Of a stretch of 40,407 bases of DNA, positions 5,974-29,439 are shown piece by piece. The first letter of the stretch is position 1. Each line of letters opens with the position of its first letter. The notes under the pieces are model-generated. The model did not search any database. It was not told where the DNA came from and worked only from the letters and a program-made list of their open reading frames with translations. Source of the stretch: Chitinophagaceae bacterium (GTDB lineage: Bacteria > Bacteroidota > Bacteroidia > Chitinophagales > Chitinophagaceae). Location of the stretch: NCBI GenBank assembly GCA_947455215.1, contig CANGNA010000037.1:1-40407 (forward strand), written 5' to 3'. The translations under genes and the position numbers were made by a program.

Positions 5974-6609
5974 ATGAAGAAGAAAGAGACGTCGCTCACC
6001 TTCCTGGAACAGTTTCTGCCACCGGGTGCCTTTGAAGAGGTAGCGCCTTTTTTTAAGACTCACACCATACACCTGACGCTGACGCACGAGCGCAAAAGCG
6101 TGCTGGGCGACTATCGCAACCCGGTGCCATCGGAGCCCTACCACCGCATCAGCATCAATGCCACTCTTAACCCCTACAGCTTCCTCATCACCCTGCTGCA
6201 CGAGCTGGCCCACCTGCTGACCTTTGTACATTTTGCACATAGCGTAAGCCCCCATGGCAAGGAATGGAAGACGCAGTTCCGCCACGTGCTGATCCCTTTT
6301 ATTGGTAAGAAATTATTCCCGGCTGATGTGGAGAAAGCGCTGCTGGCCTATATACATGACCCCGCCGCCAGCACCTGCACCGACCCGCGCCTGTTCAAAG
6401 CCTTGTACCGATACGACAAGAAAGAAGAAGGCGAGAAGCTGGTAGACGATATAGAACCCAACAAGTACTTTATGACCGATGATGGTACCGTGTACCAGAA
6501 GCTGGAGAAGATGCGCACCCGCACGCGCTGCCGCAATATGGCCAATGGTAAGATGTACCTGTTCCAGGGAATAGTAGAGGTGAAGGAAACGACGTATAGG
6601 AAAAGGTAG
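5974..6609 (+). CDS. SprT-like zinc metalloprotein
   Basis: A 211-residue protein with the zinc-metallopeptidase motif HELAH at residues 76-80 and a third likely zinc ligand, H94, in PHGKEWK, as in SprT/Spartan-type proteins. The N-terminal part gives the expected strand GDYRNP and RISIN pattern. After the core, a ~60-residue tail holds basic and threonine-rich segments (KMRTRTRCRNMANGK) where other SprT proteins carry a zinc ribbon; here only isolated cysteines remain. SprT-like proteins in eukaryotes degrade DNA-protein crosslinks, while the bacterial role is poorly defined. It begins 3 bp after the preceding membrane-protein gene, suggesting cotranscription. Confidence 0.85.
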   Translation: MKKKETSLTFLEQFLPPGAFEEVAPFFKTHTIHLTLTHERKSVLGDYRNPVPSEPYHRISINATLNPYSFLITLLHELAHLLTFVHFAHSVSPHGKEWKTQFRHVLIPFIGKKLFPADVEKALLAYIHDPAASTCTDPRLFKALYRYDKKEEGEKLVDDIEPNKYFMTDDGTVYQKLEKMRTRTRCRNMANGKMYLFQGIVEVKETTYRKR

Positions 6610-6646: not shown

Positions 6647-6676
6647 GATAGCCCGCCCTTACAGGGTGGTGGGTGC
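6647..6676 (+). repeat. Left copy of 30-bp palindromic repeat flanking helicase gene
   Basis: The unit starts GATAGCCCGCCCTTACAGGG and ends in GGTGGGTGC. It matches 29 of 30 positions of 10969-10998, on the other side of the helicase-nuclease gene and in the same orientation. Its core CCGCCCT-TAC-AGGGYGG is a near-perfect palindrome. A third copy at 11281 is split by a MITE-like element. Three copies suggest a dispersed REP-like family rather than a simple attachment site. Confidence 0.7.
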
Positions 6677-6782: not shown

Positions 6783-9700
6783 ATGTCAAATATCAGATGC
6801 ACAGCCGCATTCGCCCAAACATTATTGAAAAAATTAACAGTAGGCAACTCACGCTCTGTCTCATTAAATTCTTTGCCTGGTAATCTAACTACTAGATTAC
6901 CGTTAAACGATCTCAATATCATTAATGAAACTCTTGCGAATGAGTTTCTGAATACATTACTTAGTCAACGGTCATTTCATTTCAAATTTTGTATAGAAAC
7001 GGCAGATAAAGATGTACTGGAAATTCCAAAGCTATCGAGAATATCAAAACGATTATCTGCAATAAAGTATGATCATGAAGATTACTTGAAAGAACATGGG
7101 GTAAACACCTTTGGATTTGGCTTTCCCATTATTCTGCGCAAGTCAGCCAAAGATGCGAAAAAGACAATTGCTGCTCCTCTATTTATTTTCCCACTCAATA
7201 TTCGACAGTCGTTCAATAAAGAAAGAGAATGGGTAATTTCCATGGATGCTAATACTGAAGTAAGAACAAATGATGTTTTGGCGGCTTACTTTGAAAATGA
7301 AGAACATATAAAATTACCGCAACTTGCTGAGGAAGTTTTTGAAGATGGTATTCTGGACAAAAATGAAATACTAGACTATTGTTTGCAAGTGCAGCGATTA
7401 TTCAACGCTGATGAAATCTCACCAGATAAAGACGGGATAACAACCCTTCCAGAAAAAGCAAGTGTCGATGATCCTTGTTTCACAAACAATGGAATTATTT
7501 GGAATGGCGTGTTTAGCCTATATAAAAATCAAAAGCAAAGCCAAATCAAAGAAATGGAGCAGCTTTTGCATGATTTCAACTCACTAAATGAGGGACAAGA
7601 AACAAGTTTTGAATGGGAACAGATACATAGCCCGGTATTAACCGATCCTAGTCAAAACAGTGTATTACATGCTTTAAAAAATAATGAAAATATCGTTGTA
7701 GAAGGACCTCCAGGTACAGGTAAAAGCCAAACATTAACAGCTTTAATAACATCTGCACTGGCAAACAAAAAGAAAGTACTTATTGTTTGTGAAAAGAGAA
7801 CGGCGTTAGAAGTATTGAAAGACAATCTAAGTAAAATGTCGCCCTCTATCGCTAACTCCATTGCTTTAGTTGAAGATACTGTAAGAGACCGTGGACCAAT
7901 TGTCGAAAATGTTCGATCTCGTACAGCAAGAGCACTTTCATTCAACCATTCTTTGAGTATTTTAAGAGCCGACATACAACGTTTTGAAGAAAAAGCTGAA
8001 CAGATAGAAAACCAATATAAGGCACTTCGTGAACCTCAGAAACGATGGTGGTCAGTTTTGGTTACTGAATGGATAAAGCAAGACCGGAGTGAAGAAAAAA
8101 AACAAGAACTATATAATCTCCAAAATATTTTTCGAAAACACAAGGTAGCACCTGAAGAATTTAGAAGTATTGCTTCAGTAATAGAAGATACAAGTCATGT
8201 TTTCAAGAAAATTCAATCTGAAATAAGCTATCTCGAGAACGTACTCAACTATGACGCAATAGTAGCGAGCGGGCTCGATTCAACATTTCCATACAGTATA
8301 AAGAATTGGAAGCAAAAAACTAACGACATAAAAAAGATAGTGTCCACATCGAAAGAGTTATTTACTCAAATATGCGTAAATAATCATCAGATTGAACTGG
8401 ACTCTTGTCTGCTACTACTAAATCAGCTGTCAGACTTAGAAAAACGATATAAGAGTAAGAACAAAGATGTATATACTCCCAGCAAACTAGAAAAAATAAA
8501 ATCCATTTTTTTAAAGAGCTCGCGGCTTTATATACAAGACTCTCAAAAAGCCCTGCAACTATTAAAACAAGCAAATACATTTAGTACAAATAAACTGGGC
8601 GTTGATTTTACTGCGAATAACCAAGAAAAAAATATTGCTCAATTAAAAACATCATTTTTAGGTTATAGCGAGCGTGACCTAACCTCAAAATTAAGTTCGG
8701 ATTTTGCTAATCTCAAAAATGGAGAAAAGATTGCGGATCAACTACATTCAGTTAAACTTGAAATTACAAACTTATGGAAACAAATCGGTGGGATCATCAA
8801 TGGCATTTCGTTAAATGGTCGTTTAGTTGATATCTATTCTCTGGAACAAACCACAGCAGACTTAGAAAATAAATTAGATGAATTACTCCGATATGAAAAA
8901 ATTATTTTCATCTACTTTAAATGGAAAGATATACTTCGAAAAGCAACACCAGTTCAGATTGAATGGCTTAGCGAACTTAAAAGTAGAAACGCAGATTCAT
9001 GGACAGAGCTGCTTAACGACGCATGGCTTTTTTATAGTTTGCTAAAAGAAGATGTCGGAGATAGATTCCCCACTGACGAAACGAACTTAAATATTCTTAA
9101 AGATCTAAGACTGAAGATTCAAAAACAAGAAAAAGAGATTATTGAACACAATCTAAATAACTGGTTTAATGAAGGCCAGGCAAAAGTGAGCAAGCTAGGA
9201 CTAAGCATCAATCAACTTTACAACTTAAGAGGGTCAAAAGGGGGTACACGCAATTCCTTACGAAAAATCATCTTTACAAACCCTGACTCATTTTCAGACT
9301 TTTTCCCCGTCATAATGCTTAACCCTTCTACCTGTAGTTCGCTTTTACCGCTACAAAAAGATCTATTCGATATAGTGCTTTTCGATGAGGCCAGTCAACT
9401 TAGAATTGAAGATACGTTCACCGCTATGTTAAGGGGCAGGCAAGCTATTGTATCTGGTGATAGTTTACAGATGCCACCCTCGAGCTACTTTGAGAGTCCC
9501 AGACAATTAGTCGATGATAATGATGATACTGAAAGCGGAGAAAATGAGGATAATGATGAAGACATACTTGGAGAACTGCGGGACAATTCTGCAAAAAATC
9601 TTGCACTTCAAGAATCGCTACTTGCTTTTGCAACCGAGTATGGGTTTAGAAAAACATGGTTAGATATGCATTACAGGTCTCAACATCCGGACCTTATAGA

Positions 9701-10709
9701 ATTCTCGAACACCTGTTTTTATAATAGTCGTTTGATTCCAATGCCCGAGGTTGAACATTATAAAGCTATTTCCTACCATCATGTCGCAGGGCAATATGAA
9801 GCAAGAAAAAATGAAACTGAAGCGAAGGAAATTTTACGGATATTAAACACAGAAATCCCCTCTGACGCTTCAGTAGGAGTCGCAACATTTAACATTGATC
9901 AGCGAAATCTCATTTTAAGTATCATCGACAACGAAAGATCAGAGAATTCTGAATTCAATTCTAAAATGGCTTCTTTAGAAGCTAACGGCTTTTTCGTGAA
10001 AAATCTTGAAAATGTGCAAGGTGATGAGCGAGATTACATTTTGATCAGTACTACGTTTGGAGTAACGAAAGAGGGTACGTTCCGGATGAGTTTTGGTCCA
10101 ATTTCCGGTTCTAATGGTCACAGACTGCTTAACGTTATTATTACTCGAGCAAGGAAGAAAATGTATGTTGTCACATCTGTTCCCGAAAGTCGAATTCCAG
10201 AATATAGAAGTAGAATTCAAAGCAAGCAGATGGTTGACGGAACTGCAGGATTCTTTGCGTATCTCAATTACTCAAAAGCTGTAAGTAATGAAAATTGGGA
10301 AGAAAAGGAGAACATTCTGCAATTTATCAAACAATCAGTTGGAATTGGGCAGAAAGCTAGTAGTCTGCAATCATTAGACCAGACAGAGTCACCATTTGAA
10401 CAAGAGGTATATGATTGGCTTAAAGAGTCTATTGGAGAGGACAGAATTAAGTTACAATATAAATGCGGCGGTTTTCGCATAGATATGGTTGTCTTACCGA
10501 AAGAAAAAAACACCACAAGAAAACTAGCAATTGAATGTGATGGAGCTGCCTATCACAGTGATGAATTGAGCTGGCATTACGATCTATATCGCCAACAACA
10601 ATTGGAAGCAAACGGTTTTACATTTCATAGAATATGGTCGACAAACTGGTGGAGAGAGCCGGAAGAAGAATTTAGAAAACTACTTCAAACAATAGAGCTT
10701 TTTAATTAA
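6783..10709 (+). CDS. SF1 helicase with C-terminal Vsr/DUF559-like nuclease
   Basis: A 1308-residue protein, strikingly AT-rich against its neighbours. The N-terminal ~290 residues resemble the DUF4011-type region that precedes some large helicases (APLFIFPLNI). Walker A is GPPGTGKSQT at 308-317. A ~500-residue charged insertion, probably coiled coil, separates it from the Walker B box LFDEASQ (near D868-E869), then come SGDSLQMPP, DMHYRSQHPDL, VQGDERDYI (near 1078) and TRARKKMYVV, the motifs of Upf1-like SF1 helicases. The last ~85 residues hold FRIDM (D1234) and IECDGAAYH (E1251, D1253), a PD-(D/E)XK nuclease pattern of the Vsr/DUF559/MTES_1575 kind. Helicase-nuclease fusions of this design are known among antiphage genes. 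It is alone in its transcription unit. The defence role is inferred. Confidence 0.85.
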   Translation: MSNIRCTAAFAQTLLKKLTVGNSRSVSLNSLPGNLTTRLPLNDLNIINETLANEFLNTLLSQRSFHFKFCIETADKDVLEIPKLSRISKRLSAIKYDHEDYLKEHGVNTFGFGFPIILRKSAKDAKKTIAAPLFIFPLNIRQSFNKEREWVISMDANTEVRTNDVLAAYFENEEHIKLPQLAEEVFEDGILDKNEILDYCLQVQRLFNADEISPDKDGITTLPEKASVDDPCFTNNGIIWNGVFSLYKNQKQSQIKEMEQLLHDFNSLNEGQETSFEWEQIHSPVLTDPSQNSVLHALKNNENIVVEGPPGTGKSQTLTALITSALANKKKVLIVCEKRTALEVLKDNLSKMSPSIANSIALVEDTVRDRGPIVENVRSRTARALSFNHSLSILRADIQRFEEKAEQIENQYKALREPQKRWWSVLVTEWIKQDRSEEKKQELYNLQNIFRKHKVAPEEFRSIASVIEDTSHVFKKIQSEISYLENVLNYDAIVASGLDSTFPYSIKNWKQKTNDIKKIVSTSKELFTQICVNNHQIELDSCLLLLNQLSDLEKRYKSKNKDVYTPSKLEKIKSIFLKSSRLYIQDSQKALQLLKQANTFSTNKLGVDFTANNQEKNIAQLKTSFLGYSERDLTSKLSSDFANLKNGEKIADQLHSVKLEITNLWKQIGGIINGISLNGRLVDIYSLEQTTADLENKLDELLRYEKIIFIYFKWKDILRKATPVQIEWLSELKSRNADSWTELLNDAWLFYSLLKEDVGDRFPTDETNLNILKDLRLKIQKQEKEIIEHNLNNWFNEGQAKVSKLGLSINQLYNLRGSKGGTRNSLRKIIFTNPDSFSDFFPVIMLNPSTCSSLLPLQKDLFDIVLFDEASQLRIEDTFTAMLRGRQAIVSGDSLQMPPSSYFESPRQLVDDNDDTESGENEDNDEDILGELRDNSAKNLALQESLLAFATEYGFRKTWLDMHYRSQHPDLIEFSNTCFYNSRLIPMPEVEHYKAISYHHVAGQYEARKNETEAKEILRILNTEIPSDASVGVATFNIDQRNLILSIIDNERSENSEFNSKMASLEANGFFVKNLENVQGDERDYILISTTFGVTKEGTFRMSFGPISGSNGHRLLNVIITRARKKMYVVTSVPESRIPEYRSRIQSKQMVDGTAGFFAYLNYSKAVSNENWEEKENILQFIKQSVGIGQKASSLQSLDQTESPFEQEVYDWLKESIGEDRIKLQYKCGGFRIDMVVLPKEKNTTRKLAIECDGAAYHSDELSWHYDLYRQQQLEANGFTFHRIWSTNWWREPEEEFRKLLQTIELFN

Positions 10710-10737
10710 AAGCACTAACCGTTGCCTGTGTTATTCC

Positions 10738-11020
10738 GGCCATCGGGAGATGGCCTACCCATACGACGAAATTGAAAATTTCGCCTAACTGTTTTTCTAG
10801 ATCAGCATGTGATGTAATGGAAAGTTTCACCGAACTGTATTGCGCGCTTAATGTCCTGCCCGATATCGGGGAGTCCTCGCCGGCGCACAAGGCGGAGCAC
10901 TGAGAGACATCCCCGAGGACGGCTTTAATGTTGGTCGCTGTAGCCGTCGGGTTGAAACCCGACGCTGTGATAGCCCGCCCTTACAGGGCGGTGGGTGCGG
11001 TGGTGTTGTGTTGTATCGGC
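10738..11020 (+). repeat. Tandem repeat unit 1 (~280 bp, palindrome-rich)
   Basis: The unit starts at the hairpin GGCCATCGGGAGATGGCC and its counterpart begins 280 bp later at 11018. Shared blocks include TACGACGAAATTGAAA, GATATCGGGGAGTCCTCGCC, GAGAGACATCCCCGAGGACG and TTGGTCGCTGTAGCCGTCGG. Inside are several self-complementary pieces: GTCGGGTTGAAACCCGAC, GTCCTCG with CGAGGAC, and the CCGCCCTTACAGGGCGG palindrome. No open frame runs through both units, so it is probably structural or mobile-derived rather than coding. Confidence 0.8.
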
Positions 11021-11297
11021 CATCGGGAGATGGCCTACACCTACGACGAAATTGAAATTTCGCCGAACTGTTTTTCTTGCCGGGCATGTGATGAGACGAA
11101 AAGTTTTTTGCCGAACAGTATTGCGCTTTAATGTCCGGCCCGATATCGGGGAGTCCTCGCCAACGCACAAGGCAGCGCACTGAGAGACATCCCCGAGGAC
11201 GGTCTTTATGTTGGTCGCTGTAGCCGTCGGGTTGTCACCTTCGCGTAAAGCTACGGCGACTAAGAGAAACACGACGCTGTGATAGCCCGCCCTTTCA
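11018..11297 (+). repeat. Tandem repeat unit 2, interrupted at its end
   Basis: Imperfect copy of 10738-11020. It carries about 32 extra bases near 11235-11270 (including TTCGCGTAAAGCTACGGCGA) where unit 1 has the simple GGGTTGAAACCC hairpin. Its terminal palindrome is cut after CCCGCCCTTTCA (11286-11297) by the element at 11298-11446 and resumes as ATTCAGGGCGGTG. The divergence between units suggests the duplication is not recent. Confidence 0.75.
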
Positions 11298-11446
11298 GGC
11301 AATGTCATTAAGTTAAGAATCATGTGGGGGTATCTTTCGCTCTTTCAGAGCTTACCGTCGTCTATTTTACACCTGGGGCTGCACCCCAGGCTATTATCTT
11401 TCGGGCTTTCAGCCCAACCCAATTTCCTTAACTTAATGACATTGCC
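11298..11446. mobile_element. MITE-like element with 20-bp terminal inverted repeats
   Basis: The ends are exact 20-bp inverted repeats, GGCAATGTCATTAAGTTAAG at 11298-11317 and its complement at 11427-11446. The 149-bp element has no open frame. Inside are hairpins CTCTTTCAGAG, CCTGGGGCTGCACCCCAGG and GGGCTTTCAGCCC. The flanks are TTTCA on the left and ATTCA on the right, consistent with a short (4-5 bp) target duplication. Removing the element and one flank restores the palindrome CCGCCCTTTCAGGGCGG. This is the pattern of a non-autonomous transposable element; no related transposase is seen here. Confidence 0.8.
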
Positions 11447-11800: not shown

Positions 11801-14413
11801 ATGCTCAGGCCCTTTACATTCCTCTTAGCTTTTTTTATAGCATTTGCTACCCTATCGGTGGCGCAGACGCTTTTTCCCGTGCCCAACATACCGGGTGTAT
11901 GTGGTATATCGGGCGTAATAGTGAATATGCGTGGTGGCCAGGGTGGCGCCAGCAACAGCAGCGGCACGGGTTTTCCCGATGGTGGTGCCGGTGGCAGGGG
12001 CGGATCGATAGTATGTACGCTTGATGTGGCCAACCCCGTGGTTGTCACCTCGCTCACCTATTATGTAGGCATGGCAGGTGCTACCGGTGTACCTATTTAT
12101 ACCGGCACTACAGGCGCACTGGGCGGCACAGGCTATGGCCATGGCGGGCATGCGGGTAACTTTGCAGGCCCATCGGGCACTGTAGGTACCGACGTGAGCG
12201 GTGGCGGTGGCGGCGGCTCATCGGCTGTGCTCAATACATCTACATCTCAGGTATTATTAGTGGCTGCCGGTGGTGGCGGCGGCGGTGCGCTTACCCCCAG
12301 TGTGAACGGTGGCAATGGCGGCGCTGTTGGCGCTGCAGGTGGCAGCTATGCCCCGAATTTTGGCGGCACAGGTGGTACACCGGGCAGCTTTGGCGCAGCC
12401 GGAGGTACAGGCATAACTTATGCCGGCGGTGCTGCAAGCGCTGCCGACCCCGGCAATGGCGGAGATGGCGGCACAGGCCCCGTAGGCAGCCAGTCGGCCG
12501 GCGGCGGAGGTGCAGGCTATGGTGGTGGCGGCGGTGGTGGTGCAGGTAATACTGTAGCAGCCGGTGTGAACACCATAACTGCAGGCGGTGGCGGTGGCGC
12601 CAACTATGTGAACCCTATTGCGCTGACCACAGGCCTTGTGAACGGCACAGCTACTACAGCAACAGGTAATGGCATAGTATCGCTGACCTTATACCCTGCC
12701 ATAGCTACTACTACGGGTGTGGTGTTCTGCACAGGTGGTACATCTACTTTTACTGAATCAACCCCTGGTGGCGTGTGGAGTACATCAGACCCTGCAATAG
12801 CCACTGTAAGCTCATCGGTAGGTACTTCTATAACTGTTACCGGCGTTTCGGCCGGCACGGCCAATATATCTTATACAGCCAGTGGTTACTGGTCTTACGT
12901 ATGTGTTACGGTAAATGCAGGCGCATCGCCAATTGCAGGTCCATCGACCGTATGCGTAACGCAAACCATAGGACTTTCTGATACTGCGGGTGGCGGCAGC
13001 GGCACCTGGACAGCAACACCGGCAGGCATAGCCACAGTTTCGCCAGCGGGCCTGGTGGGCGGTGCGGCAGCGGGTGTGGCCACAGTAACTTATACGCTGG
13101 CTTCCGGCTGCTATGTAACAGCACCGGTAACAGTGAACCCATTCCCTACTGCAATAACCGGCACTATGTCGGCCTGCGCAGGTAATACCAGCGCGCTGGG
13201 CAATGGTGTGCCGGGCGGCACATGGAGCAGCCTTGACCCTGCAATAGCCACAGTAGATGCTGTAACCGGCGTGGTAACAGCAGTAGCGCCAGGCACTGCA
13301 ACCATAGTGTACGGCTTTGCAGGTTTGTGTTCTACCACTACCCTTTTCACGGTCAACCCATCGCCGGTAATATCGGCTATATCAGAGACCAACCCCACCA
13401 CTTGCGGTGGCACGGATGGCACCATACTACTGGACGGATTAACCACTGGCAGCTACTTAGTGAACTATACATACAATGGCAGTCCGGCGCCGGGCATTAC
13501 GCTTGCGGCCAACAGCCTGGGCCAGGTGACCATCAACCTGCCGAGCAGCAACCTGCTGGCTGCAGGCACTTATTCCAATATTTATGTGACCAGCAATGCT
13601 ACAGGCTGCGTATCCGCGTCTGTAGGGCCAATAACGCTTATAGATCCACCAAATCCGCCGGCACCAGTGTTGAGCTACCAGCCGCTGTGCGACCACCAGA
13701 CACTGCTGCTGAATGCTACCGATGCTGCAGGTGGCGGCGTGTATAACTGGAGCGGCCCGGCGGGCTTTACCTCAACTATAGCTGATCCGTATGTGGTGAA
13801 TGCATCGTATCCGAATGCGGGCACGTATAGCGCTACTTACACACTGCTGAATTGTGTGAGCCTGCCAGGCACAGTGAATGTGGTGATACAGACACCATCG
13901 CCACTGACCAACGTAACGCTGGACCAGACCATTTCTTATGGCAGCAGCATAAGGCTGTATGCTAATAATGCGCTGTACTACACGTGGCTGCCTAACGACG
14001 GATCGCTGAGCAACCCGAACATCAACAACCCTATAGCCAGGCCAATAACGACCACCACCTACACGGTGTTTGGCATGAACGAATATGGCTGTCGCGATAC
14101 GGCTTACGTAACCATAACGGTAGATACGGCGGCTGATGGCGGCATACCGACAGCCTTTACCCCTAATGGCGACGGACATAATGATGTGTTCCGCCCGGTA
14201 GGCTTCAGGTATCACCACCTGGTGGAGTTCCGCATATTTAACCGCTGGGGGCAGGAGGTATTTTATTCTACCAACCTGAAGGATGGCTGGGATGGCACAT
14301 TTAATGGTACGCCGCAAGAGATGGGCACTTATTATTACCAGATAATAGTGGCCCAGCCCGATAATATGGTCGAAAACACATCGTACACCGGTAGTGTGAC
14401 ATTGATACGGTAA
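11801..14413 (+). CDS. Glycine-rich T9SS-exported surface protein (CHU_C/type B sorting domain)
   Basis: An 870-residue secreted protein. It has a signal peptide (about residues 1-22, ending LSVAQ), then a very glycine-rich region (about 40-290) with blocks such as VLLVAAGGGGGGA, reminiscent of the glycine-rich domain of ALK-type receptors. Three Ig/Big2-like repeats of ~70 residues follow (marked by GGVWST, SGTWTA and GGTWSS with conserved cysteines), then one or two further Ig-like modules. The last ~90 residues form a gliding-motility-associated C-terminal domain (TAFTPNGDGHNDVFRP, FNRWGQEVFYS, DGWDGTFNG, GTYYYQI), a type B T9SS sorting signal. It is likely a surface adhesin or matrix protein. 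A terminator follows. Confidence 0.9.
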   Translation: MLRPFTFLLAFFIAFATLSVAQTLFPVPNIPGVCGISGVIVNMRGGQGGASNSSGTGFPDGGAGGRGGSIVCTLDVANPVVVTSLTYYVGMAGATGVPIYTGTTGALGGTGYGHGGHAGNFAGPSGTVGTDVSGGGGGGSSAVLNTSTSQVLLVAAGGGGGGALTPSVNGGNGGAVGAAGGSYAPNFGGTGGTPGSFGAAGGTGITYAGGAASAADPGNGGDGGTGPVGSQSAGGGGAGYGGGGGGGAGNTVAAGVNTITAGGGGGANYVNPIALTTGLVNGTATTATGNGIVSLTLYPAIATTTGVVFCTGGTSTFTESTPGGVWSTSDPAIATVSSSVGTSITVTGVSAGTANISYTASGYWSYVCVTVNAGASPIAGPSTVCVTQTIGLSDTAGGGSGTWTATPAGIATVSPAGLVGGAAAGVATVTYTLASGCYVTAPVTVNPFPTAITGTMSACAGNTSALGNGVPGGTWSSLDPAIATVDAVTGVVTAVAPGTATIVYGFAGLCSTTTLFTVNPSPVISAISETNPTTCGGTDGTILLDGLTTGSYLVNYTYNGSPAPGITLAANSLGQVTINLPSSNLLAAGTYSNIYVTSNATGCVSASVGPITLIDPPNPPAPVLSYQPLCDHQTLLLNATDAAGGGVYNWSGPAGFTSTIADPYVVNASYPNAGTYSATYTLLNCVSLPGTVNVVIQTPSPLTNVTLDQTISYGSSIRLYANNALYYTWLPNDGSLSNPNINNPIARPITTTTYTVFGMNEYGCRDTAYVTITVDTAADGGIPTAFTPNGDGHNDVFRPVGFRYHHLVEFRIFNRWGQEVFYSTNLKDGWDGTFNGTPQEMGTYYYQIIVAQPDNMVENTSYTGSVTLIR

Positions 14414-26145: not shown

Positions 26146-27072
26146 TTATAATCTTCTTTTCCCGTTGGTCTGATCTATATCTCCATATTTCCCTGCTTTA
26201 AAATCGGCATATGCTTGCCTCACTTCCTTTTCATTATTGAGAACGAACGGCCCTGCGGCAACATATGACTCATTATTAACTTCGCCACCTAACACCAGGA
26301 GATCCGATGTGGTTTTCGCGTGTATTCTGAGTACACTTCCGTCTCTCTCATAAAGCACTGCATGGCCTTCCCTTACCGTTTGCCCATTACCTACCACCAG
26401 TTGCCCTTTAAGCAGGTAAATGAATGCGTTGTGCTGCGGGTCTATAGGCAACTCTACAGTAGCACCTTCCTTTATAGTCACATGCCAGTAATTGACAGGC
26501 ATCAGTAACCGGGTCTGGGATCGCACCCCGAAGACTTCTCCTAAGATCACCCTGATCATGGCTTTGTCGTCTGATATGATCTCAATATCCTCCTTTCTGA
26601 AATGTGCAGCATTTGGCTCGGAATTTTTCAACCCGGACGGTATGTTCAACCAGCTTTGTATTCCATGAAAAGTGCCCCCATTTTCAAACAGCCCATCGCC
26701 TGTCTCTTCCATATGCAATGCGCCTCTTCCCGAAGTGAACTGTATAAAATCACCCGCTTCATATTGAAAATCATTACCCATGCTATCCCGGTGATGTGCG
26801 TTACCCTCAAATAGGTACGTTGTCGGTATTATGCCTGCATGAGGGTGCGCATCTACCCTGAATGGCGCACCTTTGGCCAGTTCCATAGGGCCAAATTCAT
26901 CGAAAATGAAAAATGGGGAAGTATAATTCTGATAGCTGTCACCGCCATTAATAATTTTTTTTAGGCTCATTTTGCCCATATTACTGATCGCGGGACCGAT
27001 TATTTTAAATACGCTCCTTTGTGATCGTTCCAGATTAGAACCGGATGTCGATGCTGAATTTCCTGTTGTCAT
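26146..27072 (-). CDS. Pirin family protein (cytoplasmic)
   Basis: A 308-residue bicupin. The N-terminal cupin carries the pirin metal site: H76 and H78 in AHPHAGIIPTTY, H120 and E122 in GRGALHMEE. The C-terminal cupin is shorter and lacks these ligands, as in most pirins. Some bacterial pirins have quercetin 2,3-dioxygenase activity; others bind transcription factors or act as redox sensors, so the role here is open. It has no export signal, unlike its paralogue at 28480. The upstream dsbA/frnE-like gene ends 36 bp away on the same strand, so the two form an operon. Confidence 0.9.
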   Translation of the reverse strand: MTTGNSASTSGSNLERSQRSVFKIIGPAISNMGKMSLKKIINGGDSYQNYTSPFFIFDEFGPMELAKGAPFRVDAHPHAGIIPTTYLFEGNAHHRDSMGNDFQYEAGDFIQFTSGRGALHMEETGDGLFENGGTFHGIQSWLNIPSGLKNSEPNAAHFRKEDIEIISDDKAMIRVILGEVFGVRSQTRLLMPVNYWHVTIKEGATVELPIDPQHNAFIYLLKGQLVVGNGQTVREGHAVLYERDGSVLRIHAKTTSDLLVLGGEVNNESYVAAGPFVLNNEKEVRQAYADFKAGKYGDIDQTNGKRRL

Positions 27073-28479: not shown

Positions 28480-29439
28480 TTAATAGCCATTTACTTTATC
28501 AGTATTGCCCATCTTCCCAGAATTGAAATCCGCTATGCAATGCTCTATTTCCTGTTTGGAGTTCATCACGAACGGACCATATGAGTAAACGGGTTCATTA
28601 TTTGGTCGTCCTCCAAGCACAAGTAATTCCGATTTTGCTTTACTATAGACATGCAAGAAGTCGCCCTTGCGTTCGTATAACACCATTTGGTTCTTTTGTA
28701 TTTCTTGTCTGCCCTGTACTTCAAGTACTCCATCTACTAAGTAAATGAACGCATTGTGAGTAGGATCCACGGGGATTTCAAGTTTAGTATTCTCATTCAA
28801 CTTTATATGATAATAGAACACTGGGAATAACATACTCACTTGCGATTTTACACCAAATCCTTCACCCAAAACAACTTTAACGGAATAGTTTTCTGTTGCT
28901 ACAAATCCCAACTGTTGCTCATGATACATTACGGTTGAAGGGGCTATGAATTTATACTTGGCGGGCAGATTTAACCATATCTGGAATCCGTGGTAAATCC
29001 CTCCTTCGTCATAGACTTTTTTCCCGGTTTCTTCCATATGAATGGCACCACGGCCTGACGTAAAGATCAGGAAATCGTTCTTGCCATATTGATAGTCATT
29101 GTTTAGACTATCACGGTGATGCCCTGTACCAGACAAAAAATAGGTCATTGGGATAATACCAGCATGGGGGTGAGCATCTACTCGCATAGGCAGCTTAGGT
29201 GCCAGGTCAACAGGGCCAAATTCGTCGAAGACCACATAGGGGGAGACATAGTCTGTATCATCTCCTGCAAATGATCGCAGCAATGGAAGTGAACCGATTG
29301 ATGATCTTTGGGCTTTGATTACCTGCAAAACACGCCTCTCAGATCGAGTGGCTGCAAGTGCAGCTGTTTTGATAACTGATGGTATCAGTATAGACGCACC
29401 TATAATTGCTGAACCCTTTAAGAAATTACGCCTTTCCAT
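28480..29439 (-). CDS. Pirin family protein with Tat signal peptide
   Basis: A 319-residue bicupin, paralogous to the 26146 pirin, with the same metal ligands (H90 and H92 in AHPHAGIIPMTY, H134 and E136 in GRGAIHMEE). It begins MERRNFLKGSAIIGASILIP, a twin-arginine type signal peptide (RRNFLKG then a hydrophobic stretch), and probable cleavage follows AALAA. It should therefore be folded with its iron and exported to the periplasm by the Tat system. Most pirins are cytoplasmic. The upstream doxX gene ends 60 bp away, suggesting an operon. Confidence 0.88.
   Translation of the reverse strand: MERRNFLKGSAIIGASILIPSVIKTAALAATRSERRVLQVIKAQRSSIGSLPLLRSFAGDDTDYVSPYVVFDEFGPVDLAPKLPMRVDAHPHAGIIPMTYFLSGTGHHRDSLNNDYQYGKNDFLIFTSGRGAIHMEETGKKVYDEGGIYHGFQIWLNLPAKYKFIAPSTVMYHEQQLGFVATENYSVKVVLGEGFGVKSQVSMLFPVFYYHIKLNENTKLEIPVDPTHNAFIYLVDGVLEVQGRQEIQKNQMVLYERKGDFLHVYSKAKSELLVLGGRPNNEPVYSYGPFVMNSKQEIEHCIADFNSGKMGNTDKVNGY

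Follow-up and report, generated by a model that had tools for sequence, protein, structure and literature searches.

The question raised by this locus was whether a single large gene lying between repeats in the genome of a Chitinophagaceae bacterium encodes an acquired defence against phages, as had been proposed in an earlier note made from the letters of the DNA. The stretch analysed (the window) comprises 40,407 nucleotides of contig CANGNA010000037.1 (GenBank assembly GCA_947455215.1). The gene was found at positions 6783-10709 of the forward strand as an intact open reading frame (ORF) of 1308 codons, running from ATG to TAA and containing no internal stop. Its product was found to contain an N-terminal DUF4011 domain, followed by the presence of a superfamily 1B (SF1B) helicase with a long helical insertion and a C-terminal MTES_1575 nuclease domain. 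The protein is probably a solitary helicase-nuclease effector, gained by horizontal transfer and directed against phages (or invaders in general); a single-gene phage defence is probable because the clade to which it belongs is related to known anti-phage proteins.

Domain layout of the predicted protein

The N-terminal domain was found to match DUF4011 (PF13195) at residues 45-168, where the Pfam gathering cut-off was passed (26.7 bits against 22.2). Among six sister proteins scanned, the cut-off was passed by three (L098, L101 and L110; loci are cited by L numbers and genomes by G numbers), and the other three remained below it at 19.6-21.8 bits. The residues L28, G106, G113, P115, P132 and N163 were invariant in the alignment of all 29 members of the clade described below. 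The AlphaFold model of residues 1-295 reached a predicted local distance difference test score (pLDDT) of 83.7 and a predicted template modelling score (pTM) of 0.79; no match to this model was found in the PDB by Foldseek (best expect value, E, 0.61), and no relative of the domain was found in the PDB by profile search (best E 0.48). The N-terminus is, as judged from its sequence, a recognisable but divergent DUF4011 and no new domain at the Pfam level.

The helicase was recognised by the Pfam families AAA_11 (residues 287-500, E 1.4e-14) and AAA_12 (residues 943-1132, E 5.9e-15). Besides the Walker A and Walker B motifs, the helicase core was found to contain the motifs SGDSLQMPP, HYRS, QGDERD and ITRAR within residues 811-1145, and the residues K314 (Walker A), D868, E869, R965 and R1122 were conserved in 29 of 29 aligned clade members. 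The nearest PDB folds to the model of residues 270-1308 (pLDDT 83.3, pTM 0.69) were found by Foldseek to be IGHMBP2, UPF1, Dna2, Senataxin and Sen1 (E about 1e-8 to 4e-8), with template modelling scores of just about 0.2 by query length because the helicase core alone aligns. By AAA_11/AAA_12, by its motif residues and by Foldseek on the predicted model, the helicase is of the SF1B, UPF1/Dna2-like type, in agreement with the Upf1-like superfamily 1 (SF1) helicase that had been read from the sequence at the outset.

The insertion within the helicase was found to span residues about 391-810 and to be nearly all helix in the predicted model. A coiled insertion of ~500 residues had been described in the earlier note; the insertion itself was recovered, at the smaller size of about 420 residues. 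Its length varied from 324 to 579 residues across the family and it was the least conserved part of the protein, with a mean identity of 0.14 against 0.50 in the helicase core that follows.

The C-terminus was found to match MTES_1575 (PF18741) over the whole profile (positions 1-96 of 96) at 94.1 bits against a cut-off of 38.2, with an intact motif (D1234 and E1251-C-D), and DUF559 was also passed at 22.8 bits against 20.6. The Vsr/DUF559-like nuclease predicted earlier was thereby corroborated, the C-terminus belonging to a nuclease family. The ECD motif was kept in 22 of the 29 clade members, the window's protein included. A scan for promoters and terminators gave signals no more frequent than in shuffled sequence.

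A compact clade and its named relatives

When a tree was built from the helicase region of 59 proteins, 29 compact proteins (1194-1607 residues), all from Bacteroidota or from genomes of the window's own phylum, were set apart from the rest by a branch with 99% support in the Shimodaira-Hasegawa-like approximate likelihood ratio test. The unity of this clade is partly due to selection, because the 29 had been chosen for matching the N-terminal half in a quick search; the other 30 proteins were hand-picked from the remaining loci and represent many phyla, among them Bacteroidota. Loci that were partial, plasmid-borne or seemingly duplicates (L111, L112, L130, L132, L133, L136 and L137) were left out of the tree. 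The window's protein is placed by sequence comparison in this compact, Bacteroidota-centred clade, which is without a name in the libraries used and was full-length in Bacteroidota only among the sequences searched. No paper describing it was found in literature searches.

Of 395 genomes drawn from across the phylum, 62 were found to contain a match with E no higher than 1e-30. Compact proteins that include the N-terminal part were present in the window's own genome and in G182, G441, G433, G110, G394, G361 and G215 (for G394 and G361 the N-terminus is visible in the alignment), and the gene of G468 is cut off by a contig end. Plasmid records contained 335 matches among 72,556, none of them over 80% of the query, and the best, on a Flammeovirga megaplasmid, covered 71% of the query and lay one gene downstream of an AAA-ATPase/ParB-like pair. 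A single phage record of 50,697 matched, in the helicase-nuclease half only, and at least 36 viral-contig loci matched, none beginning before residue 86 among the matches listed. A single-protein scan of the genome contig collection gave no match. A contig-edge sequence labelled Candidatus Berkelbacteria (L187:10001-11041) was found to correspond to residues 1-344 among the best 80 of 526 matches and could, unless it is contamination, place the compact kind outside Bacteroidota.

Among defence libraries the best match was PADLOC PDC-S37, at 512.5 bits in three stretches, of which the best aligned residues 381-1305 with model positions 444-1339 of 1550; the tool supplies no cut-off for it. The helicase-nuclease half is held in common and the PDC-S37 model, of 1550 residues, is larger. 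Eight clade members scanned scored 409-513 bits, seven sisters among them scoring 409-499. PDC we take to mean phage-defence candidate (single gene), and no paper naming PDC-S37 was found by literature search. NCBIfam ProA (NF058533) was matched at 481.9 bits (seven sisters 406-485) against a cut-off of 1500, so that the protein is not a member; residues 379-1305 were found to align with model positions 796-1704, and the ProA model, of 1903 residues, carries some 330-420 extra residues before the helicase, as estimated from aligned positions. A description of ProA as an anti-phage protein was not found among the papers listed. NCBIfam Hhe (NF042953) was matched at 339.0 bits (seven sisters 282-373) against a cut-off of 2000, again short of membership, and the PADLOC Hhe model at 248 bits; Hhe shares DUF4011, by name, and the helicase-nuclease half, its models being larger at 1797 and 1911 residues. 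The candidate status for phage defence given to the gene at first reading is supported because PDC-S37, ProA and Hhe are its closest named profiles and because defence genes lie near some sisters.

The eukaryotic SF1B proteins Dna2, UPF1 and IGHMBP2 have the fold of the helicase core in common with the window's protein, at the Foldseek E values of about 1e-8 given above. The nuclease of Dna2 is N-terminal and of another family, and we know of no DUF4011 in Dna2, UPF1 or IGHMBP2.

Mokosh (MkoA and MkoC) was found to have a related SF1 helicase core, at 90-92 bits over ~270-290 residues, and differs in combining the helicase with a PLD-type nuclease, as described in an excerpt of PMC10952713. 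The window's protein matches the helicase core of Mokosh alone, and no PLD domain was found among the best 25 of the 30 Pfam families with E of 1 or less, which places it outside Mokosh. In an excerpt of PMC3710099 it is proposed that giant proteins with an MTES_1575 restriction endonuclease, an SF-I helicase and HEPN attack invading DNA without modification genes. These HEPN/transglutaminase/Vsr/winged helix-turn-helix (wHTH) proteins share with the window's protein the SF1 helicase and the MTES_1575 nuclease family, and no modification gene was recognised beside the window's gene; HEPN, transglutaminase and wHTH (DUF3320) were all absent from the same best 25 Pfam families, and the protein is not one of the giant proteins. 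DUF4011 itself was found in three papers; in one of them, PMC10250203, it appears as a core gene that borders a defence hotspot.

Composition, repeats and genomic site

The composition of the gene was compared with that of 121 ORFs called mechanically, each at least 300 residues long, from the window itself and from fifteen stretches of 20 kb in its genome. The G+C fraction (GC) of the gene was 0.363 against a control mean of 0.494 (standard deviation 0.037; z -3.6), a value equally low in 2 of the 121, and GC at third codon positions was 0.299 against 0.564 (standard deviation 0.069), equally low in 1 of the 121. The AT-richness that had first drawn attention was thus borne out. The two control ORFs with equally low GC (L246:12495-13736 and L242:3558-5774) are possibly other acquired genes.

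The gene was found to be bracketed by two copies of a 29-nucleotide direct repeat that differ at one base (T/C), and no third copy within 3 mismatches was found in the 4.2-Mb genome, in keeping with the flanking repeats of the earlier note. Exact repeats of at least 20 nucleotides within 600/700 bp on both sides were present in 2 of 113 control ORFs, and the flanking repeats are therefore unusual yet not unique. Their reading as merely common genome repeats was rejected on the lack of a third copy and on the control count. The right copy lies within a block resembling repetitive extragenic palindromic (REP) elements, parts of which match the genome at 72 places (the block itself counted), so that the repeats are not established as the ends of a mobile element. 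Insertion by recombination would fit this arrangement. Inspection by eye of the first 110 residues of 33 window ORFs revealed no integrase or transposase.

Among 99 genomes surveyed, the window's own included, 43 were found to contain some match with E of 0.001 or below, in many cases to the ATP-binding region alone, and a match of full gene length reaching residue 15 or earlier was found in 8 (the own genome, G009, G040, G070, G077, G086, G090 and G098). The protein is single-copy in its own genome, where the second match covers residues 289-354 of the ATP-binding region alone. A contig-edge fragment in the same genus (G006:C151:7-201), corresponding to residues 4-68 at 40% identity, is perhaps a further member. 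The homolog of G009, also of the same genus, was full-length and 52% identical and was found at a different site, between glucokinase-like and GH125-like genes (named by eye). It was likewise AT-rich (GC 0.346 against 0.445 in its flanks), and no exact repeat of at least 14 nucleotides was found within 600/700 bp on both sides of it.

On the left of the gene, the SprT-like gene is carried by 10 of 11 genomes of the genus, the own included, and the upstream gene order was shared too where contigs reach. On the right, a short-chain-dehydrogenase-type gene (by eye) follows the SprT-like gene in G004, G005 and G010, other relatives differ again, and the G004 ortholog of the glycine-rich right neighbour lies ~190 kb away from the SprT-like gene. 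The gene therefore stands at a synteny breakpoint and was not found as a conserved core gene in synteny. The comparison of related genomes with and without the gene that had been proposed in the earlier note was found to give patchy presence and, at this breakpoint, no clean empty site. An acquired origin, as first supposed, is supported by the atypical composition, the patchy presence and the different site in G009. The coordinates of all features are given in Table 1.

Table 1. Features of the gene and its surroundings, in window positions
Feature	Position	Strand	Basis
Compact DUF4011 / SF1B helicase / MTES_1575 nuclease protein, 1308 residues	6783..10709	+	16-row and 29-row alignments
N-terminal domain, residues 1-286, holding divergent DUF4011 (residues 45-168 = 6915-7286)	6783..7640	+	Pfam, AlphaFold model
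Helicase RecA-like part 1, Walker A GPPGTGKS (residues 308-315 = 7704-7727)	7641..7952	+	Pfam, alignment
Helical insertion within helicase, residues about 391-810	7953..9212	+	Model; family identity
Remaining helicase core, residues 811-1145, Walker B FDEASQ (residues 867-872 = 9381-9398)	9213..10217	+	Pfam, alignments
MTES_1575 (Vsr-type) nuclease domain, residues 1205-1304	10395..10694	+	Pfam, 5.6e-27
Candidate catalytic nuclease residues D1234 and E1251 (IECDG)	10482-10484; 10533-10535	+	Putative catalytic assignment
29-nucleotide hairpin-like direct repeat, left copy	6648..6676	+	Repeat search
29-nucleotide direct repeat, right copy	10970..10998	+	Repeat search
REP-like repeat block, two ~280-bp tandem units with hairpins	10727..11310	.	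Repeat search
SprT-like metallopeptidase-type gene (by eye, HELAH motif), left neighbour	5974..6609	+	Edge of conserved synteny
Large glycine-rich protein, right neighbour	11801..14413	+	Ortholog comparison

Predicted function and its alternatives

The neighbours of the sister genes were scanned for defence families at 24 loci. From 13 loci 113 of 122 neighbours were scanned, nine of L102 being left out as that locus is a near-duplicate of L101, and from 11 further loci 53 of 95 were hand-picked with a bias to near or unfamiliar-looking genes. Hits were attributed for selected proteins only, among the best 25 of 190 and the best 25 of 54 families. Zorya/type I restriction-modification, Mrr, Shedu or HsdR genes were found within about 6 kb of the sister gene in at least 4 of the 24 loci, a raw count and a lower bound because mad6, SspH, RtcR and PD-T4-6 were among the families left unattributed.

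In L097 (G182; L097:8098-15124), the sister gene was found to be preceded by a PD-T4-1-like gene, a type I methyltransferase gene and a specificity gene and directly followed by ZorA, ZorB and ZorE ORFs with no gap between the longest ORFs, the sister ORF ending at 12519 and the ZorA ORF, taken at its longest, beginning at 12520. This arrangement is possibly a Zorya variant with an SF1 helicase-nuclease. L121 was found to contain an Mrr-type methyl-directed restriction gene 1.4 kb off, plus an HKD/Snf2 helicase; L127 contained a Shedu SduA gene 1.7 kb off, together with a methyltransferase-like gene and a protein matching a prokaryotic Argonaute (pAgo) model less strongly; and L126 contained an HsdR-like gene 6 kb off. 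Possible further defence neighbours were found in L103 (a PDC-S22 candidate) and L100 (methyltransferase-like, mad2 5.9e-17). Elsewhere the sister neighbours looked at appeared ordinary by eye. Between the sister gene and the Mrr gene of L121, directly upstream of the former, a 343-residue protein with a GAGAS motif (L121:8640-9668) was found to have no PADLOC match and no PDB sequence match.

As to mechanism, polarity, trigger, substrate, cutting and protection are all what we infer. The DUF4011-type domain and the long, fast-evolving helical insert would act as sensor and clamp for an abnormal nucleic-acid state during infection, such as free ends or replication intermediates bearing single-stranded DNA. 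The SF1B motor would then load and translocate with ATP, presumably 5'-to-3', and feed DNA to the C-terminal Vsr-type PD-(D/E)XK nuclease for cleavage. No modification partner was recognised by eye beside the gene among the window ORFs, and self and non-self would therefore most likely be told apart by the state of the DNA, not by methylation. The giant proteins of PMC3710099 and Hachiman, a different helicase-nuclease system whose helicase, in an excerpt of PMC12278908, can sense aberrant DNA and then unleash the nuclease, may serve as analogies for this mechanism. The logic of the predicted defence is probably ordinary, in a clade without a name in the libraries used.

The gene might instead encode an accessory enzyme of DNA repair or recombination, a helicase-nuclease that would act like a bacterial Dna2 on stalled forks or flaps in host DNA and have no specific defence role, as the placing of its core beside Dna2, IGHMBP2 and UPF1 and the many copies amid genes that look ordinary by eye would allow. 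Such a role is unlikely in view of the patchy presence (8 of 99), the atypical composition and the different sites in related genomes, and also of the anti-phage character of the closest profiles and the copies in defence islands. The same enzyme could also have a different target and act as a barrier to plasmids or other DNA of transformation or conjugation instead of phages. The architecture is silent on the target, and the Flammeovirga megaplasmid relative lies near its AAA-ATPase/ParB-like pair; the named relatives, however, bear anti-phage labels, and some sister neighbours (Zorya, Mrr and Shedu) are anti-phage or general restriction systems, which makes this an improbable account. That the gene is decaying after acquisition and has no present function, as an AT-rich gene at a synteny breakpoint beside repeats and the decayed nuclease motif in 7 of 29 members might be read, is highly improbable given the open frame of 1308 codons, the intact helicase and nuclease motifs and the 52% identical full-length homolog retained in the same genus.

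Several results weigh against an anti-phage effector. The scores lie far below the cut-offs of ProA (1500) and Hhe (2000), and function therefore does not transfer directly from either. The ECD motif of the nuclease was found to be degenerate in seven members (L105, L106, L107, L110, L126, L134 and L135) whose checked helicase residues are intact, so that cutting may be dispensable in parts of the clade. No clear or candidate defence neighbour was attributed in 18 of the 24 sister loci, a number that unattributed hits could shift, and the genes around the window copy and the G009 copy look ordinary by eye. The relatives' loci contained no clean empty site, and a before/after comparison of the locus is impossible because the ortholog of the short-chain-dehydrogenase-type gene lies on another contig in the window's own genome and the locus is rearranged.

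Behind the nuclease, a C-terminal tail of 105-150 residues was found in 12 of the 29 clade members (L097, L098, L099, L100, L103, L121, L122, L124, L125, L127, L129 and L131); the window's protein is without it. The other eleven tails were all found to match that of L098 at E 3e-6 or better, and the Pfam GreA_GreB C-terminal domain (PF01272) was present in both tailed proteins scanned (L097, 8e-7; L098, 6.6e-8), while phmmer gave no match of the L098 tail among PDB sequences. RNA polymerase is the docking partner of this domain in Gre factors. Its match behind a helicase-nuclease suggests a link to RNA polymerase in the tailed lineage. It is conceivable, on a long chance, that the compact proteins form a separate single-gene immune family, spread throughout Bacteroidota and acting on transcribing or replicating invader DNA, in which the tailed form would be tethered to RNA polymerase, the tail-less protein of the window would rely on its helical insert and the L097-type gene may be an extra effector of a Zorya-like system.

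If protective, the anti-phage effector predicted here would add a compact, widely scattered defence protein to those of Bacteroidota, the defence libraries used reaching the compact clade via partial or sub-threshold matches to larger relatives only. Being a single gene, it is easy to test directly, and the clade allows natural comparisons of members with and without the GreA-like tail and with and without the intact nuclease motif, which would reveal the parts needed by a helicase-nuclease for phage recognition and arrest.

Elsewhere in the window, two pirin-like genes (by eye) lying close to each other at 26146-27072 and 28480-29439 were found to share a 44-nucleotide repeat, at 77% identity.

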